DNA of 64,000 bases, from assembly GCF_016756595.1 (NCBI RefSeq), contig NZ_AP023257.1, forward strand, positions 3,612,001 through 3,676,000, given 5' to 3'. A model generated the notes under the pieces. It saw only the letters and a list, made by a program, of their open reading frames with translations. It did not search any database and was not told where the DNA came from. Below are positions 18,341 to 42,843 of the stretch, one piece after another. The translations under genes were made by a program, and so were the position numbers. Each line of letters opens with the position of its first letter. Position 1 is the stretch's first letter. The stretch comes from Mesorhizobium sp. L-2-11. Its GTDB lineage: Bacteria; Pseudomonadota; Alphaproteobacteria; Rhizobiales; Rhizobiaceae.

Positions 18341-18560
18341 TGTCCGCTGCGCGCCGGTTCTCGAAACCACCACCATATGACTCGCCAGAGCGAATTTCGA
18401 AACAGTCTCTGAGCGACGCCGGCCGCCTGCCCGGGCACAAGGCAAAGCCTGACCCAGGCCTATCGGCGCTGCCCTAATTTTAGGCAGGCCGCGACATACT
18501 GAGCGCCAACATCCTCCAAATCACCGATTGCGCTTGATTTTCTCCGGTGACGCCAGTGAA

Positions 18561-19997
18561 ATGGCCTCACAGGGGAGTATGCCATTGGCAGCGTTCGACG
18601 AAATGCTTCCGGAAATCTCCGGATTGAGAAAACCGTATTCGGCTTACGATCGCTGGCTGAAGGAGCAGGATCCGGCCAGGCTTAGCGAAAAGATGCAGGA
18701 CGCCGAACGCGTCTTTCGCAAGACCGGCATCACCTTTGCCGTCTATGGCGAGCAGGAAGCCTCCGAGCGCCTTATTCCCTTCGACATCGTTCCGCGCATC
18801 ATTTCCGGCAATGAATGGCGACGGCTGACGCAAGGCATCGAGCAGCGCGTCCAGGCGCTGAACGCTTTTCTCGACGATATCTACCACCGCCAGGAGATTT
18901 TGCGCGCCGGGCGCGTCCCCAAGGAATTGATCGCCAAGAACGAGGCGTTCCTGCCGGAGATGATCGGAGTGCGGCCGCCGGCCGGCGTCTACACCCATAT
19001 CATCGGCGTCGATATCGTTCGCATCAGCGAGAACGAATTCTACGTGCTGGAGGACAATGCGCGCACGCCGTCCGGCGTCTCCTACATGCTGGAGAACCGC
19101 GAGACGATGATGCAGCTCTTTCCCGAGCTGTTCCAGCAGATCAAGGTGCGGCCGGTGGAAAACTATCCCCAGCTCTTGCGCCAGTCGCTGGCGGCAGTGC
19201 GGCCGCATGGCACCAAGGGCGCGCCGACCATCGCCGTGCTGACGCCGGGCAGCTTCAACTCCGCCTATTTCGAACATGCCTTCCTTGCCGACCAGATGGG
19301 TGTGCAGCTTGTCGAGGGGCAGGATCTGCGCGTCGTCGATGGCCACGTCGCGATGCGCACAACCGAAGGCTACAAGCAGATCGACGTGCTTTATCGAAGG
19401 GTGGACGATTCTTTCCTCGATCCGCTGACCTTCCGTCCCGACTCGGCACTGGGTGTGCCGGGCATCATGGACGTCTACCGGGCCGGCAACATCACCATCG
19501 CCAATGCACCGGGAACCGGCATCGCCGACGACAAGGCGATCTATTCCTACATGCCCGAGATCGTCGAATTCTACACCGGCCGCAAAGCGATCCTCGGCAA
19601 CATCCCGACCTGGCGCTGCTCGGAGCCGGACAGCCTGAAATACGTGCTCGAACATATCGACGAGTTGGTAGTGAAGGAGGTGCATGGCTCCGGCGGCTAC
19701 GGCATGCTGGTCGGGCCGGCGGCGACCAAGAAGGAATGCGAGGAGTTTTCCAGGAAACTCGCGGCAAAACCGTCGAACTACATCGCCCAGCCGACGCTGG
19801 CACTGTCGACCTGTCCGATCCTGACCGACAAAGGGCTGGCGCCGCGCCATGTCGATCTCAGGCCCTACGTGCTGGTTTCCGATCGCATCCAGATCGTGCC
19901 GGGCGGGCTGACGCGTGTGGCGCTGAAGGAAGGCTCGCTGGTGGTCAATTCGTCCCAGGGCGGCGGGACGAAGGATACGTGGGTGCTGGATGATTAG
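18561..19997 (+). CDS. Circularly permuted ATP-grasp protein (CP_ATPgrasp family)
   Basis: About 478 residues. ATP-grasp enzymes make amide or thioester bonds via acyl phosphates; this circularly permuted group is predicted to be a peptide amidoligase. Seen: ERLIPFDIVPRIISGNEW, FYVLEDNARTPSGVSYMLEN, LTPGSFNSAYFEHAFLA, then the ATP-binding part VVKEVHGSGGYGMLVGP and ending with LVVNSSQGGGTKDTWVL. The start is uncertain: ATG 18561 is used; ATG 18579 has a ribosome site too close, TTG 18528 is possible. First gene of the alpha-E, transglutaminase and Anbu set. Confidence 0.9.
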   Translation: MASQGSMPLAAFDEMLPEISGLRKPYSAYDRWLKEQDPARLSEKMQDAERVFRKTGITFAVYGEQEASERLIPFDIVPRIISGNEWRRLTQGIEQRVQALNAFLDDIYHRQEILRAGRVPKELIAKNEAFLPEMIGVRPPAGVYTHIIGVDIVRISENEFYVLEDNARTPSGVSYMLENRETMMQLFPELFQQIKVRPVENYPQLLRQSLAAVRPHGTKGAPTIAVLTPGSFNSAYFEHAFLADQMGVQLVEGQDLRVVDGHVAMRTTEGYKQIDVLYRRVDDSFLDPLTFRPDSALGVPGIMDVYRAGNITIANAPGTGIADDKAIYSYMPEIVEFYTGRKAILGNIPTWRCSEPDSLKYVLEHIDELVVKEVHGSGGYGMLVGPAATKKECEEFSRKLAAKPSNYIAQPTLALSTCPILTDKGLAPRHVDLRPYVLVSDRIQIVPGGLTRVALKEGSLVVNSSQGGGTKDTWVLDD

Positions 19998-20124
19998 AGA
20001 GTGAGTAGTCAGTAGTCAGTAGTCAGGGAAAGAACAATGCCATACTCCGTCGAAATCCAAACACTCACTACCCACTACCCACTACCCACTATTCACTACT
20101 CACTAGCCCGAAGGGCCCTTTTCC
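19998..20124. repeat. Short tandem repeats able to form a long imperfect hairpin
   Basis: Near 20005-20024 the unit AGTAGTC is repeated three times; near 20065-20105 a CACTACC-type unit is repeated about five times with variants. The two arrays are largely complementary in opposite sense, so the transcript between the ATP-grasp and alpha-E genes could fold into one long stem. Confidence 0.6.
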
Positions 20125-21066
20125 ATGCTTCTCGGCCGCACCGCCAACGGGCTCTACTGGATGAACCGCTACATCGAGCGGGCGGAAAACATGGCGCGGC
20201 TGGTCGATGCCGGGCTGCGCATGGCGCTTACCCGAACCCAGAACGCTTCCGAAGAATGGAATTCGGTGCTGCTCAGTGCTGGTTCGGACGCTGCCTTCAC
20301 GCAGAAATATTCCGACTATACCGCCGCCAATGTCGCCGATTTCCTGCTGCGCGACACATCCAATCCGTCGAGCACGATGGCTTCGATCGAAACGGCCCGT
20401 AACAATGCCCGCATGGTGCGCACCGCGCTGACGCGTGAAACCTGGGAAAGCATCAACGAGGCCTGGATGTCACTGAAGCGCATGCTGGCCAAGCCGATCG
20501 ACGAACGTGATTTGCCCAGCGTACTCGACGCGATCAAGCGCGAAACTGCGCTGATCCGCGGCGCGTTCTACGGCACCATGCTGCGCAACGAGATTTTTGA
20601 TTTCTCGCAGCTCGGCACTTATGTCGAACGCGCCGACAATACGGCCCGCATCCTGGACGTGAAATACTACGTGCTGTTGCCGTCGATCTCGTGGGTCGGC
20701 TCCACGCTCGACAATTACCAGTGGGAATCGATCCTGCGCTCGGTGTCGGCGCACCGTTCCTATCGCTGGGTCTACGAGGCCGACTACAAGCCGAGCAACA
20801 TCGCCGACTATCTGATCCTCAACGTTCGCATGCCGCGCTCGCTGACCTTCTGCTACCGTTTCCTGACGGAGCATCTCAGATTCCTTGGCGATGATTATGG
20901 CGAGCGCCATGCCTGTCATGTGACGGCCGGCAAGACCCAGGCGATGCTGGCCGCCGGCTCGATCAAAGACATATTCGACGCCGGCCTGCATGAATTCCTG
21001 GCCAATTTCATCCGCGACAACATCAGGCTCGGCGACGAGATCGCGCAGGACTACAGGTTTTATTAG
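20125..21066 (+). CDS. Alpha-E domain protein (DUF403)
   Basis: A 313-residue, almost wholly helical protein. Landmarks: LLGRTANGLYWMNRYIERAENMARL at the start, YVERADNTARILDVKYYVLLP and a repeat-like second half (SAHRSYRWVYEADYKPSNIADYLILN). Alpha-E proteins occur next to or fused with CP_ATPgrasp proteins and are thought to assist them, perhaps by binding substrate. No membrane span or signal. It sits 127 bp after the ATP-grasp gene, across a repeat tract, and is followed by three tandem repeats. Confidence 0.9.
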   Translation: MLLGRTANGLYWMNRYIERAENMARLVDAGLRMALTRTQNASEEWNSVLLSAGSDAAFTQKYSDYTAANVADFLLRDTSNPSSTMASIETARNNARMVRTALTRETWESINEAWMSLKRMLAKPIDERDLPSVLDAIKRETALIRGAFYGTMLRNEIFDFSQLGTYVERADNTARILDVKYYVLLPSISWVGSTLDNYQWESILRSVSAHRSYRWVYEADYKPSNIADYLILNVRMPRSLTFCYRFLTEHLRFLGDDYGERHACHVTAGKTQAMLAAGSIKDIFDAGLHEFLANFIRDNIRLGDEIAQDYRFY

Positions 21067-21236
21067 CATGATCCCGGAAAGTGGAAGGCGGTTTCCGGAA
21101 AAGATCATGCTCAGGGGGACGAGCATGATCCCGGAAAGTGGAAGCCGGTTGCCGGAAGAGATCATGCTCAGGGGGACGAGCATGATCCCGGAAAGTGGAA
21201 GCCGGTTGCCGGAAAAGATCATGCTCAGGGGACGAG
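21067..21236. repeat. Three tandem 57-bp copies of the palindromic repeat
   Basis: Copies begin at 21067, 21124 and 21181, spaced exactly 57 bp. Each carries CATGATCCCGGAAAGTGGAA, a GCCGGTTKCCGGAARAG middle and GATCATGC, then CAGGGGGACGAG. The ends CATGATC/GATCATG are inverted. Copies 2 and 3 are nearly identical; copy 1 differs at a few sites. They fill the gap between the alpha-E and transglutaminase genes. Confidence 0.85.
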
Positions 21237-21240
21237 AGCA

Positions 21241-22035
21241 ATGCGGCTGAAGATCACCCACCGGACCGAATACCGCTATGATGCGCCGGTGCACTATCTG
21301 TTGCAGCGGTTGCGGCTGCTTCCAGTCAGCGGACCGACGCAGACCGTCTTGTCCTGGACGCTGAAGATCGAAGGGGCGCGCGAAGAAGTGCGTTTCACCG
21401 ACCATTTCGGCAACGACACGCGGCTTTTGAGCGTCGAAGGCGAGCGCGATTTCATCACCGTCGAGGCATCGGGTGAGGTGGTTACACGCGACACATCAGG
21501 CGTTTGCGGGCCACATCAGGGTTTCGCGCCGCTCTGGCTGTTTGACCAGGAAACGCCGTTGACCACGATCGGCAGCGGCATTCGCGAACTCGCGGCCTCG
21601 GTCGGCGAGGGGGCCGATATCGAAAGATTGCACCGGCTGATGGCGGTGATCGGCGAGCGCGTCGCCTATACGCCGGGCACCACCAACGCGGCGACCCCGG
21701 CCGAGGACGCGCTGGCGCTCAAGACCGGCGTCTGCCAGGACCACAGCCACATCTTTGCCGCCGCCGCGCGAGCCATGGGGTTTCCGGCCCGCTACGTCAG
21801 CGGCTATTTGATGATGGATGCCGCGGTCGAGCAGGCGGCGAGCCATGCCTGGGCCGAAGCGCATGTTGCGGGCCTTGGCTGGGTCGCGTTCGACGTCGCC
21901 AACGGCATTTCGCCCGACGAACGCTATGTGAAGGTAGCAACCGGCCGTGATTACCGCGACGCCACGCCCGTATCAGGAATTCGACTGGGACAAGCGGAAG
22001 AACTGCTTGCGGTGACCGTCACCGTGGAGCAGTAA
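21241..22035 (+). CDS. Transglutaminase-like family protein
   Basis: A 264-residue protein with a bacterial transglutaminase N-terminal beta domain (MRLKITHRTEYRYDAPV) and a papain-like core. The triad is intact: Cys165 in KTGVCQDHSHIF, His202 in SHAWAEAHV, Asp218 in VAFDVANG. Such enzymes cleave or form isopeptide bonds; in this context a role as peptidase acting on ATP-grasp-made amide bonds has been proposed for the family. No signal peptide, so cytoplasmic. It begins just after the 57-bp repeats and is 32 bp from the Anbu gene. Confidence 0.9.
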   Translation: MRLKITHRTEYRYDAPVHYLLQRLRLLPVSGPTQTVLSWTLKIEGAREEVRFTDHFGNDTRLLSVEGERDFITVEASGEVVTRDTSGVCGPHQGFAPLWLFDQETPLTTIGSGIRELAASVGEGADIERLHRLMAVIGERVAYTPGTTNAATPAEDALALKTGVCQDHSHIFAAAARAMGFPARYVSGYLMMDAAVEQAASHAWAEAHVAGLGWVAFDVANGISPDERYVKVATGRDYRDATPVSGIRLGQAEELLAVTVTVEQ

Positions 22036-22067
22036 TCCCTGGCAAGATTTGCTGCCAAAGGGATTCG

Positions 22068-22798
22068 ATGACCTATTGCGTCGGCCTGAAGATCGATCGC
22101 GGGCTCGTGTTCATGTCGGACACACGCACCAATGCCGGCATGGATTCGATCTCGACCTTCAAGAAGATGCATGTCTGGGAGGAGCCGGGCGAGCGCGTCA
22201 TCGTGCTGATGTCGGCCGGCAATCTGGCGACGACGCAAGCTGTCGTCAGCCTGCTCGACGAACGCACCAAGGCGGTGGCCGATCGCCACGCCACGCTGCT
22301 TGAAACGCCGTCGATGTACCAGACGGTGCGGCTGGTCGGCGACACCGTTAAGGAAGTCATCGCCAGTTCGACGCCGGCTGGCGAAAAGGCCGATTCCTAT
22401 TTCAATGCCTCCTTCATCCTCGGCGGCCAGATCAAGGGCAGCGCGCCGCGGCTGTTCATGATCTATCCGGAAGGCAATTTCATCGAATCGACCGAAGACA
22501 CGCCGTTCTTCCAGATCGGCGAGACCAAATACGGCAAGCCGATCATCATCCGCGCCTATGAGAAGGCGATGAGTTTCGCCGAGACGGTGAAACTGCTGCT
22601 GGTGTCGTTCGACTCGACGCTGAAATCGAACCTGTCGGTCGGCCTGCCGCTCGACCTGCTGTTCTACGAAAAGGACGCCTTAAAGTCAGCCTGAAGAAGC
22701 GGATAGCCCACGACGACCAATATTATCGGACGATCTCGGACGGCTGGTCGAATGCACTGAAGGCTGCTTTTGCGAGCCTGCCCGATTTTCCCGAGTGA
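22068..22798 (+). pseudogene. Anbu-type proteasome-like protease, frameshifted
   Basis: Anbu is a bacterial homologue of proteasome beta subunits with a catalytic N-terminal Thr. The frame from 22068 starts MTYCVGLKIDRGLVFMSDTR (Thr2 as nucleophile; Asp in SDTR, Lys33-type site in FKKMHVW) and stops at 22694 after FYEKDALKSA. The missing C-terminus continues in another frame: LKKRIAHDDQYYRTISDGW and NALKAAFASLPDFPE, ending at 22798. The span is 731 bp, one short of a whole number of codons; one lost G near 22690 explains it. Corrected length is 243 residues, normal for Anbu. Either a real mutation or a sequencing error. The truncated 208-residue form keeps the catalytic core. Confidence 0.85.
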
Positions 22799-41054: not shown

Positions 41055-41214
41055 CTCAAGGCGCTGCTATAGGGTGGAGGACCTTTGGCTGCAAGCACCA
41101 GCTTTGCATTGCGGCCTTTCTCCCCGGTATTTTCGTCGCGTTCGTTGCGCGGCTTGGGCTATATCTAGCTGATGGCTTCGGATTCGTGGCCTTGTGTGAC
41201 GATAAGGACAGTGT

Positions 41215-42843
41215 GTGACCGACGACGTGACGAACCAGCCGCCGCCGCTGGCAGGCGGCAACGCCTGGCGGGGCGATCCGTTGCTGATCCAGCTTGCCGA
41301 GCGTTTTTCCGATCCGGTGCGCAAGGATATCGATGGGCTTGGCCGTTTCGTGCTGACGCAGGAGGCGCAGGAACTGGCTCGCCTCGCCAATGTCGAGACG
41401 CCGAAGCTCAGGACCCATGACCGCCAGGGCCGGCGCATCGATCTGGTCGAGTTCCATCCAGCCTATCATGCGCTGATGCGCCGGTCGGTGGCGAATGGGC
41501 TGCATTCGTCGGTCTGGGAAAATGGCGATGCCGAGATCGGCCGCCGCCATCAGGTGCGCGCCGCCCGTTTCTACCTGACGGCGCAGCTCGAAACCGGGCA
41601 TCTCTGTCCCATCACCATGACCAGCGCCTCGCTGGCAGCGCTGATGGCAAGCCCCAAACTGTTTCGCGAATGGGCGCCACGGGTGACGACACGCAAATAC
41701 GACCAGAGCCAGAAGCCGCCGGTCGAAAAGGGCGGGCTGACGCTCGGCATGGGCATGACTGAGAAGCAGGGCGGCACCGACGTCCGCGCCAACGTCACCA
41801 GGGCCGAGCGCGCCGGAAGCAGCTTCTATCGGCTGACCGGCCACAAATGGTTCATGTCGGCGCCGATGTCGGATGCGTTCCTGGTGCTTGGACAGGCGCC
41901 GGAAGGGCTTTCGTGCTTTCTCGTTCCCCGCATTCTCGGCGATGGCTCGGGCAACGGCTTCCGCTTCCAGCGGCTGAAGGACAAGCTTGGCAACCGCTCC
42001 AACGCCTCGTCCGAAGTCGAGTTCGTCAATGCCATCGGCGAGATGGTCGGCGAGCCCGGGGCAGGCGTCAAGACGATCATGGATATGGTGACGCTGACCC
42101 GGCTCGACTGCGCGATCGCCTCGTCGGCGATCATGCGAGCCGGGCTGGCCGAAGCCGTCCACCACAGCCGTCACCGCCAGGTGTTTGGAACAAATCTGAT
42201 CGAGCAGCCGCTGATGCAGCGCGTGCTGGCCGACATGGCGCTCGACGTCGCCGCCGCCACCGCGCTGTCATTCCGACTGGCGCGCTCCTTCGACGAGGCG
42301 GCGGGCGACCGCGGCGAGGCGGCCTTCGCCCGCGCCATGACGCCGGTGGTCAAATACTGGGTCTGCAAGATCGCGCCGCCGCTGCTCTATGAGGCGATGG
42401 AGTGCCTCGGCGGCAATGGCTATGTCGAGGAGGCGCCGCTCGCCCGCTACTATCGCGAGGCTCCGGTCAACGCGATCTGGGAGGGATCCGGCAACGTCAT
42501 GGCGCTGGACGTGCTGCGCGTGCTGGGCCGCGCACCCGGCCTGTTCGAGGAGGTGCTGGCCGGCATCGATCGCGATCTCGGCGCCGGCGGACGCGGCACC
42601 GTCGGTGTGCTCAAGGCAGCAATGCAGGTCGCGGCAACCGATGAGGGCTCGGCGCGTCTGCTCACCGAGCAACTGGCGCTGTCGGCGGCGGCGGCGGAGC
42701 TTCGCAGGCTGGGGGCAGGGCGGATCGCCGACGCCTTCGTCGAGACGCGCCTCGCCGGCCAGTGGCGCAACACCTATGGTATGCTCGACTCACGCCATGA
42801 CGCGCGTATGATCATCGATACTCTCTACCCACCGGTCACCTGA
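41215..42843 (+). CDS. aidB: AidB-like acyl-CoA dehydrogenase
   Basis: A 542-residue flavoprotein close in length and motifs to E. coli AidB (adaptive response to alkylation), which binds DNA and may destroy alkylating agents. Seen: LGMGMTEKQGGTDVRANVTR, TGHKWFMSAPMSDAFLVL, VKYWVCKIAPPLLYEAMECLGGNGYVEE and YREAPVNAIWEGSGNVMALD. The start is GTG 41215, with AAGGA 7 bp upstream. Isovaleryl-CoA-type activity cannot be excluded. Stands alone, divergent from pyrB. Confidence 0.88.
   Translation: MTDDVTNQPPPLAGGNAWRGDPLLIQLAERFSDPVRKDIDGLGRFVLTQEAQELARLANVETPKLRTHDRQGRRIDLVEFHPAYHALMRRSVANGLHSSVWENGDAEIGRRHQVRAARFYLTAQLETGHLCPITMTSASLAALMASPKLFREWAPRVTTRKYDQSQKPPVEKGGLTLGMGMTEKQGGTDVRANVTRAERAGSSFYRLTGHKWFMSAPMSDAFLVLGQAPEGLSCFLVPRILGDGSGNGFRFQRLKDKLGNRSNASSEVEFVNAIGEMVGEPGAGVKTIMDMVTLTRLDCAIASSAIMRAGLAEAVHHSRHRQVFGTNLIEQPLMQRVLADMALDVAAATALSFRLARSFDEAAGDRGEAAFARAMTPVVKYWVCKIAPPLLYEAMECLGGNGYVEEAPLARYYREAPVNAIWEGSGNVMALDVLRVLGRAPGLFEEVLAGIDRDLGAGGRGTVGVLKAAMQVAATDEGSARLLTEQLALSAAAAELRRLGAGRIADAFVETRLAGQWRNTYGMLDSRHDARMIIDTLYPPVT

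Follow-up and report, generated by a model that had tools for sequence, protein, structure and literature searches.

A Mesorhizobium Anbu operon with a shortened Anbu gene and a constant ATP-grasp/Alpha-E pair

What does an operon do that places an ATP-grasp protein and a proteasome-like subunit side by side, and which of its genes form the core? The question is raised by a 64,000-nucleotide stretch of DNA from Mesorhizobium sp. L-2-11 (contig NZ_AP023257.1, positions 3,612,001 to 3,676,000; hereafter the window), which sits within a 7.4 Mb genome. Profile searches bore out what an earlier note had read from the letters: four co-directional genes on the + strand encode, in a row, a circularly permuted ATP-grasp protein, the helical protein Alpha-E, a transglutaminase-like protein and Anbu. 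The system is a member of the already known Anbu operon, here with a shortened Anbu. We find that ATP-grasp and Alpha-E form a constant core and that Anbu is optional. Tentatively, we read the operon as a nitrogen-limitation ligase that would make a small peptide or peptide–amine amide, with the transglutaminase-like protein as an amidase and Anbu as an accessory. The features of the locus are, in window positions:

18579–19997, + strand: standalone circularly permuted ATP-grasp ligase (PF14403, PF04174, PDB 3n6x, three motifs)
20000–20104, no strand: dispersed intergenic inverted repeat in the ATP-grasp/Alpha-E gap (arms 20000–20023 and 20081–20104)
20125–21066, + strand: Alpha-E, all-helical, with an internal tandem duplication (PF04168, 1.3e-92)
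21065–21235, no strand: three 57-bp direct repeats in the Alpha-E/transglutaminase gap (repeat comparison within its own genome)
21241–22035, + strand: transglutaminase-like protein with C165, H202 and D218 present (PF08379 and PF01841; alignment)
22068–22694, + strand: Anbu, shortened frame of 208 amino acids, C-terminal helix missing (PF00227, solved Anbu matches)
22664–22795, + strand: remnant of the Anbu C-terminus, out of frame (residues 200–243 of a full-length query, E 2.9e-18)

The locus was compared with relatives at several depths. An 80-locus set holds the best 80 of 508 confirmed matches obtained when 84,980 species genomes were scanned and therefore leans towards near relatives (42–95% identity). 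The genus sample comprises 119 genomes, searched with a relative's full-length Anbu. The phylum sample comprises 200 genomes; there, Anbu was searched with a single query (E up to 0.001, reaching 33% identity), so that its absence may be overcounted. In addition, 49 phylum regions were picked by hand: 20 have Anbu close by, 20 have Alpha-E alone, and 9 have Alpha-E in a genome whose Anbu is distant. Published work is cited by PMC number for what excerpts of the papers state.

The order ATP-grasp, Alpha-E, transglutaminase, Anbu recurred together in 57 of the 80 named loci, which argues that the four-gene set is more than chance. ATP-grasp was present in 77 of these loci, the transglutaminase in 80 and Anbu in 60, absence of Anbu here meaning that none lay inside the stretch retrieved. 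A gene-neighbourhood survey of the kind suggested by the earlier note extended the co-occurrence beyond close relatives. Beyond the four genes, no flanking reading-frame cluster was common to more than 10 of the 80 named loci, and a wider conserved neighbourhood was rejected.

The two most constant members were inseparable. ATP-grasp and Alpha-E were adjacent in 126 of 129 loci, the remaining 3 being cut by contig ends just before Alpha-E, and every one of the 49 phylum Alpha-E regions had an adjacent ATP-grasp on the same strand. The window ATP-grasp matched PF14403 at 1.4e-167 (557.9 bits for PF14403 and 497.1 bits for PF04174, above cut-off) and PDB 3n6x at 2.6e-198. It keeps the motifs EDNxRxPSG, VVKxxxGSGGYG and NSSQGG, as did 71 of 72 full-length standalone ATP-grasps; the other, L270, has a variant glycine loop. 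The predicted fold matched glutathione-type synthetases over its full length, and the window protein has the ATP-grasp architecture of glutathione and glutathionylspermidine synthetases. By this predicted fold, its build is closer to that of small-peptide synthetases than to that of the protein-modifying RimK. In the excerpt of PMC6376114, the Yersinia bercovieri ATP-grasp releases orthophosphate from ATP. Alpha-E matched PF04168 (311.1 bits, above cut-off) and gave a predicted model with a predicted local distance difference test score (pLDDT) of 90.6. Its conserved ER motif is present twice (E18-R19 and E168-R169), and its two halves aligned with a probability of 99.1 (E 5.8e-19), nine control comparisons giving 0.6 or below. 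Alpha-E is thus an internal tandem duplication. The earlier note had let this pair attach an amino acid or peptide to a target: inseparable genes, motifs and structural class speak for an amide ligase, while the RimK-unlike architecture does not favour a protein as the target.

Anbu presents a different picture. The window gene was recognized by PF00227 (5.2e-08) and matched five solved Anbu sequences (best 1.8e-82). The protein starts Met-Thr, with D18 and K33 present (Thr1, Asp17 and Lys32 after loss of Met); these Thr, Asp and Lys residues were invariant in all 60 Anbu sequences of the 80-locus set. The N-terminal Thr expected beforehand is therefore there; the intact gene is not. The frame from 22068 stops at 22694, after 208 amino acids, relatives encode 243 amino acids, and the C-terminal remainder follows out of frame; the gene end earlier placed at 22798 spans this tail. 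Among the residues lost are those of the C-terminal helix, on which the dimer and assembly depend, and Pseudomonas aeruginosa Anbu with a shortened C-terminal helix was unable to assemble (PMC5666114). Among the 110 Anbu-bearing genus genomes, 109 gave a stop-free match that extended as far as residue 242 or 243, in G042 across two contigs. The window's genome (G000) was the one exception, its match falling into two frames. The frameshift could be a sequencing error. An error-ridden assembly as its cause was rejected: of 48 coding-signal frames in a near relative's matching region, 43 were full in the window, 2 were absent and 3 were partial, namely Anbu, one at the right edge of the window and one at 41.2 kb. 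At 41059–41438, a 126-amino-acid frame of the near relative is split over two frames, another possible frameshift. The same genome carries a second proteasome-family gene, probably HslV, with an open frame (G000 C1:407429–407944).

Elsewhere, too, the operon is found without Anbu. In the genus sample, Alpha-E was present in 117 of 119 genomes and Anbu in 110. In five of the nine Anbu-less genomes, the trio of ATP-grasp, Alpha-E and transglutaminase was still present at the same location on the chromosome, and the interval from the transglutaminase to the following gene contained no Anbu; two carried only a fused Alpha-E (G003 and the 79%-complete G067), and two lacked Alpha-E. For the five Anbu-less trios, the median ratio of nonsynonymous to synonymous substitution rates (dN/dS) over 10 pairs was 0.021 for ATP-grasp, 0.024 for Alpha-E and 0.091 for the transglutaminase; these low values indicate that the trio genes are under purifying selection there. 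Of the phylum genomes sampled, 69 had Anbu and 112 had Alpha-E; 68 had both and 1 had Anbu only, so that 44 of the 112 Alpha-E genomes had no detectable Anbu. At least 59 of the 69 Anbu genes lay within 6 kb of an Alpha-E match; the other 10 were not that close to an Alpha-E among the matches listed. One of the 69 matches, in G263, is a fragment of 43 residues. The presence of Anbu changed at least 5 times on a quickly built tree of 77 loci; three of the 20 loci without Anbu (L227, L257 and L263) end soon after the transglutaminase and were omitted from this count. As side observations, Anbu lies far from the other operon genes in L172–L177, L179 and L181, and G209 of the phylum sample has Anbu with no Alpha-E detected.

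These counts bear directly on an older idea, in which ATP-grasp and Alpha-E would tag proteins, the transglutaminase would remove or edit the tag, and Anbu would degrade the tagged proteins. PMC5666114 traces the operon and a peptide-ligase/peptidase scheme to Iyer 2009 and Valas 2008, in line with the prior work described in the earlier note, and forms of the tagging idea are attributed to the same two papers (PMC5666114, PMC6376114). The proteasome-like fold, the invariant Thr, Asp and Lys, and the closeness of most Anbu genes to Alpha-E are what such a system should show, and protein turnover would suit nitrogen starvation. The idea is nevertheless weakened by the dispensability of Anbu, which is missing from many Alpha-E genomes, changes state repeatedly on the tree and is broken in the window. 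According to the excerpt of PMC6376114, neither peptidase nor amidase activity was detected for purified Anbu proteins, and a specific complex of the operon proteins was not found; the ATP-grasp architecture, again, is that of small-peptide synthetases rather than of RimK. We consider tagging for degradation unlikely. With no Anbu detected in 44 of the 112 Alpha-E genomes and a truncated one here, Anbu is not the core protease of the window copy, and the same counts go against the proposal that it degrades the products of the system. Anbu as the operon core was rejected on the Anbu-less genus, phylum and named loci together with the window frameshift, and degradation centred on Anbu is probably not what the operon mainly does.

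The transglutaminase-like protein matched PF08379 and PF01841, that is, Bact_transglu_N plus a Transglut_core with a Cys-His-Asp triad, and alignment confirmed C165, H202 and D218 as previously claimed. It was less constant in the 49 phylum regions than in the 80-locus set: 31 of 49 had a same-strand transglutaminase no more than 1.5 kb from Alpha-E (16/20, 11/20 and 4/9 in the three groups). Its catalytic Cys changes state at least 6 times on the tree of all 80 loci. A tie between loss of this Cys and loss of Anbu was considered (Fisher p 0.013) and rejected; the supported branches of the tree offered just 4 independent pairs (median p 0.5), and no such link is claimed.

When is the operon used? 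Pseudomonas putida genes PP_2685-2688 are induced by nitrogen limitation or nitrate (PMC7801951, PMC8050072, PMC3325844), and PMC7801951 places this operon under NtrB/NtrC. PMC8050072 and PMC3325844 give Anbu as strongly induced. Burkholderia cenocepacia I35_5080-5083, comprising DUF404/407, DUF403 and two transglutaminase-like proteins, are listed as NtrC- and sigma-54-dependent, with no Anbu in the list as excerpted (PMC5491218). In marine metagenomes, DUF403/404/407 and Bact_transglu_N are associated with urea-metabolism domains (PMC3597751). Since published data put the operon in nitrogen regulons, we scanned the 400 bases upstream of 121 ATP-grasp genes (72 from the 80-locus set and 49 from the phylum regions) for sigma-54 sites. 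A site with at most 2 mismatches was found in 49 of 121 loci, compared with 4.3 expected from shuffles, 3 from the reverse strand and 6.5 from random windows, and for 42 of the 49 sites the domain start lies 54 to 170 bases further downstream. These counts are not independent, because the rows are related; on the tree, the state of the site changes at least 9 times. Among the 49, 8 have an NtrC-like site that departs from one pattern at no more than 1 position (0.9 expected), and 6 match a longer NtrC pattern with at most 2 mismatches (0.4 expected); a looser NtrC palindrome showed no excess. A Bradyrhizobium CP_ATPgrasp_1 gene is among predicted RpoN targets (PMC13207237), and the core sequence given for it is also that of the site in L260.

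Put together, the results suggest a make-and-break pair. ATP-grasp and its constant partner Alpha-E would constitute a two-protein amide ligase, the core of the system, in which a carboxylate is activated with ATP and joined to an amine, giving a small peptide or a peptide–amine compound; glutathione and glutathionylspermidine synthetases serve as models for this step. The transglutaminase-like protein would most likely cleave or exchange that amide, much as in glutathionylspermidine synthetase/amidase, and Anbu would be an additional, dispensable hydrolase whose substrate is probably that compound or a related peptide. Nitrogen limitation would switch the operon on via sigma-54 and NtrC in many proteobacteria. 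We infer the small size of the product as well as the amidase and Anbu roles. In the window, where the operon lacks a sigma-54 promoter and Anbu is broken, the three-gene version is likely what works.

Several observations weigh against this proposal and keep it tentative. The gap in Z between glutathione-type synthetases and RimK probably reflects chain order in part, since the circular permutation is found in glutathione-type synthetases as well; enzymes without it can be aligned only with the second half of the ATP-grasp model. The gap thus speaks to architecture more than to chemistry, and we have lowered our confidence on this account. Likeness in fold cannot by itself identify the substrate, and glutamine and glutamate gave no stimulation of the ATP-grasp (PMC6376114). 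The role of Alpha-E is the weakest step of the mechanism: structure comparison gave no recognized relative among solved structures, and its fold match to NasR, which led us to compare the NIT domain (PF08376) by profile, was weak. In 10 of 80 loci, another residue stands in place of the catalytic transglutaminase Cys; among them are L200 and L201 from two other Burkholderia, where the altered protein adjoins Alpha-E. Transglutaminase chemistry is therefore not always needed, which weakens the amidase role and equally counts against the former view that this protein reverses or trims a modification. In the wild type, the P. putida Anbu gene was only 1.12-fold up, compared with 11- to 15-fold for its three partners (PMC7801951). 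Finally, no -24/-12 sigma-54 site was found upstream of the window ATP-grasp, where the best candidate had 4 mismatches, and such a promoter for the window operon was rejected; six other genus loci also lacked the site (best 4 to 6 mismatches), and it occurred in only 21 of 72 regions of the 80-locus set. The nitrogen link accordingly rests on relatives.

A bolder form of the small-amide proposal applies to loci that keep the sigma-54 promoter. There, and throughout the proteobacteria, the operon could be a nitrogen-starvation system making and recycling an undiscovered peptide–amine metabolite, with Alpha-E as the second ligase subunit and with Anbu and the transglutaminase as removable trimmers, the proteasome likeness of Anbu having diverted attention from the ligase. 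Taken as a whole, this seems to us rather improbable.

The absent promoter and the broken Anbu gene can also be read as signs of an operon decaying in this particular genome. Repeats occupy two of its three gaps and widen them to 127 and 174 bases, against medians of 16 and 28 in the 80-locus set (domain to domain). The inverted repeat had 13 matches in its own genome, 12 of them elsewhere, and two copies of the 57-bp repeat gave 19, 17 of them elsewhere. With repeats inserted twice, the promoter lost and Anbu frameshifted as in no other of the 110 Anbu-bearing genus genomes, the operon might do little. Against this, ATP-grasp, Alpha-E and transglutaminase are intact with their motifs kept, and dN/dS among six genus members including the window was low (0.045 for ATP-grasp, 0.074 and 0.162 for the other two trio genes); moreover, the possible sequencing error and the site-less genus loci take force from two of the signs. 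Decay is, in our judgement, very unlikely. A role in nitrogen storage or salvage, in which the ligase would build up an oligomeric amide at times of excess and starvation would lead the two hydrolases to release it, would suit the nitrogen control seen in relatives (PMC5491218, PMC7801951) and the association with urea metabolism (PMC3597751) but fits poorly with co-induction of ligase and hydrolase genes under starvation (PMC7801951, PMC3325844), and we give it very little credence.

Under the small-amide proposal, the question to ask is less what Anbu degrades than which small amide is made by the ligase when nitrogen is scarce, because Anbu is optional, ATP-grasp and Alpha-E are constant, and many copies have a sigma-54 site. 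The survey results make the function of the operon more testable, and the genus offers a natural experiment in its Anbu-less and Anbu-broken genomes that retain the trio. In the literature searched, the sigma-54 sites, the tandem duplication of Alpha-E and the full-length match of the ATP-grasp fold to glutathione-type synthetases look new; the duplication, or the degenerate fused form described below, may already have been described in Iyer 2009, Valas 2008 or the P. putida NtrC paper.

As to the gene start, the ATP-grasp frame has its first possible start codon at 18528. Two relatives carry stops just upstream of 18579, which makes this position a more likely start than 18561, the one given earlier.

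The window's genome also holds a fused relative of the core pair. Near 1,818,500–1,825,200 of C1 in G000 (L070, 3487–10238), a fused ATP-grasp/Alpha-E lies between two transglutaminase-domain proteins, one of 1137 amino acids and one small and transglutaminase-like. The ATP-grasp motifs bind ATP. All three were missing from the fused ATP-grasp in 120 of 120 cases among the matches listed and in 6 of 6 diverse cases, and all three were kept by 15 of 15 standalone rows in the same comparison. Lacking the ATP-binding motifs, the fused form probably does not work as an ATP-using ligase and, judged by its sequence, is probably a pseudo-enzyme. In L151, L158, L161, L165, L168, L169, L182, L200 and L201, a second, lower-scoring ATP-grasp adjoins the active standalone set; where checked (L151, L165, L169 and L182), it is of the fused, motif-less type. 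Lying side by side, the second ATP-grasp and the active set may work together.

How does the window compare with known systems? The fused ATP-grasp/Alpha-E with its large transglutaminase-domain protein (L070) shares the domain families of the window and differs in its motif-less ATP-grasp. RimK and RloC systems have an ATP-grasp with a peptidase partner, as in the window (PMC12239564). In glutathionylspermidine synthetase/amidase, trypanothione synthetase and YgiC/YjfC, Alpha-E has no counterpart, and the window keeps its activities on separate polypeptides: only CP_ATPgrasp models matched the window ATP-grasp (E up to 0.001), with no amidase domain in the same protein. Closer are the trios. 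B. cenocepacia I35_5080-5083 has the trio in a row, like the window, with no Anbu nearby in the excerpted list (PMC5491218), and L202–L209, L212, L214 and L230, from Rhizobium, Shinella, Sinorhizobium, Agrobacterium and related bacteria, have the trio with no Anbu nearby; the window differs from all of these in having an Anbu gene, albeit a broken one. The Anbu operon of P. putida (PP_2685-2688) and Y. bercovieri, with a conserved gene order described in PMC6376114, differs from the window copy, in which Anbu lacks its C-terminal helix, repeats widen two gaps and no sigma-54 site was found; the window nevertheless encodes the same four families.

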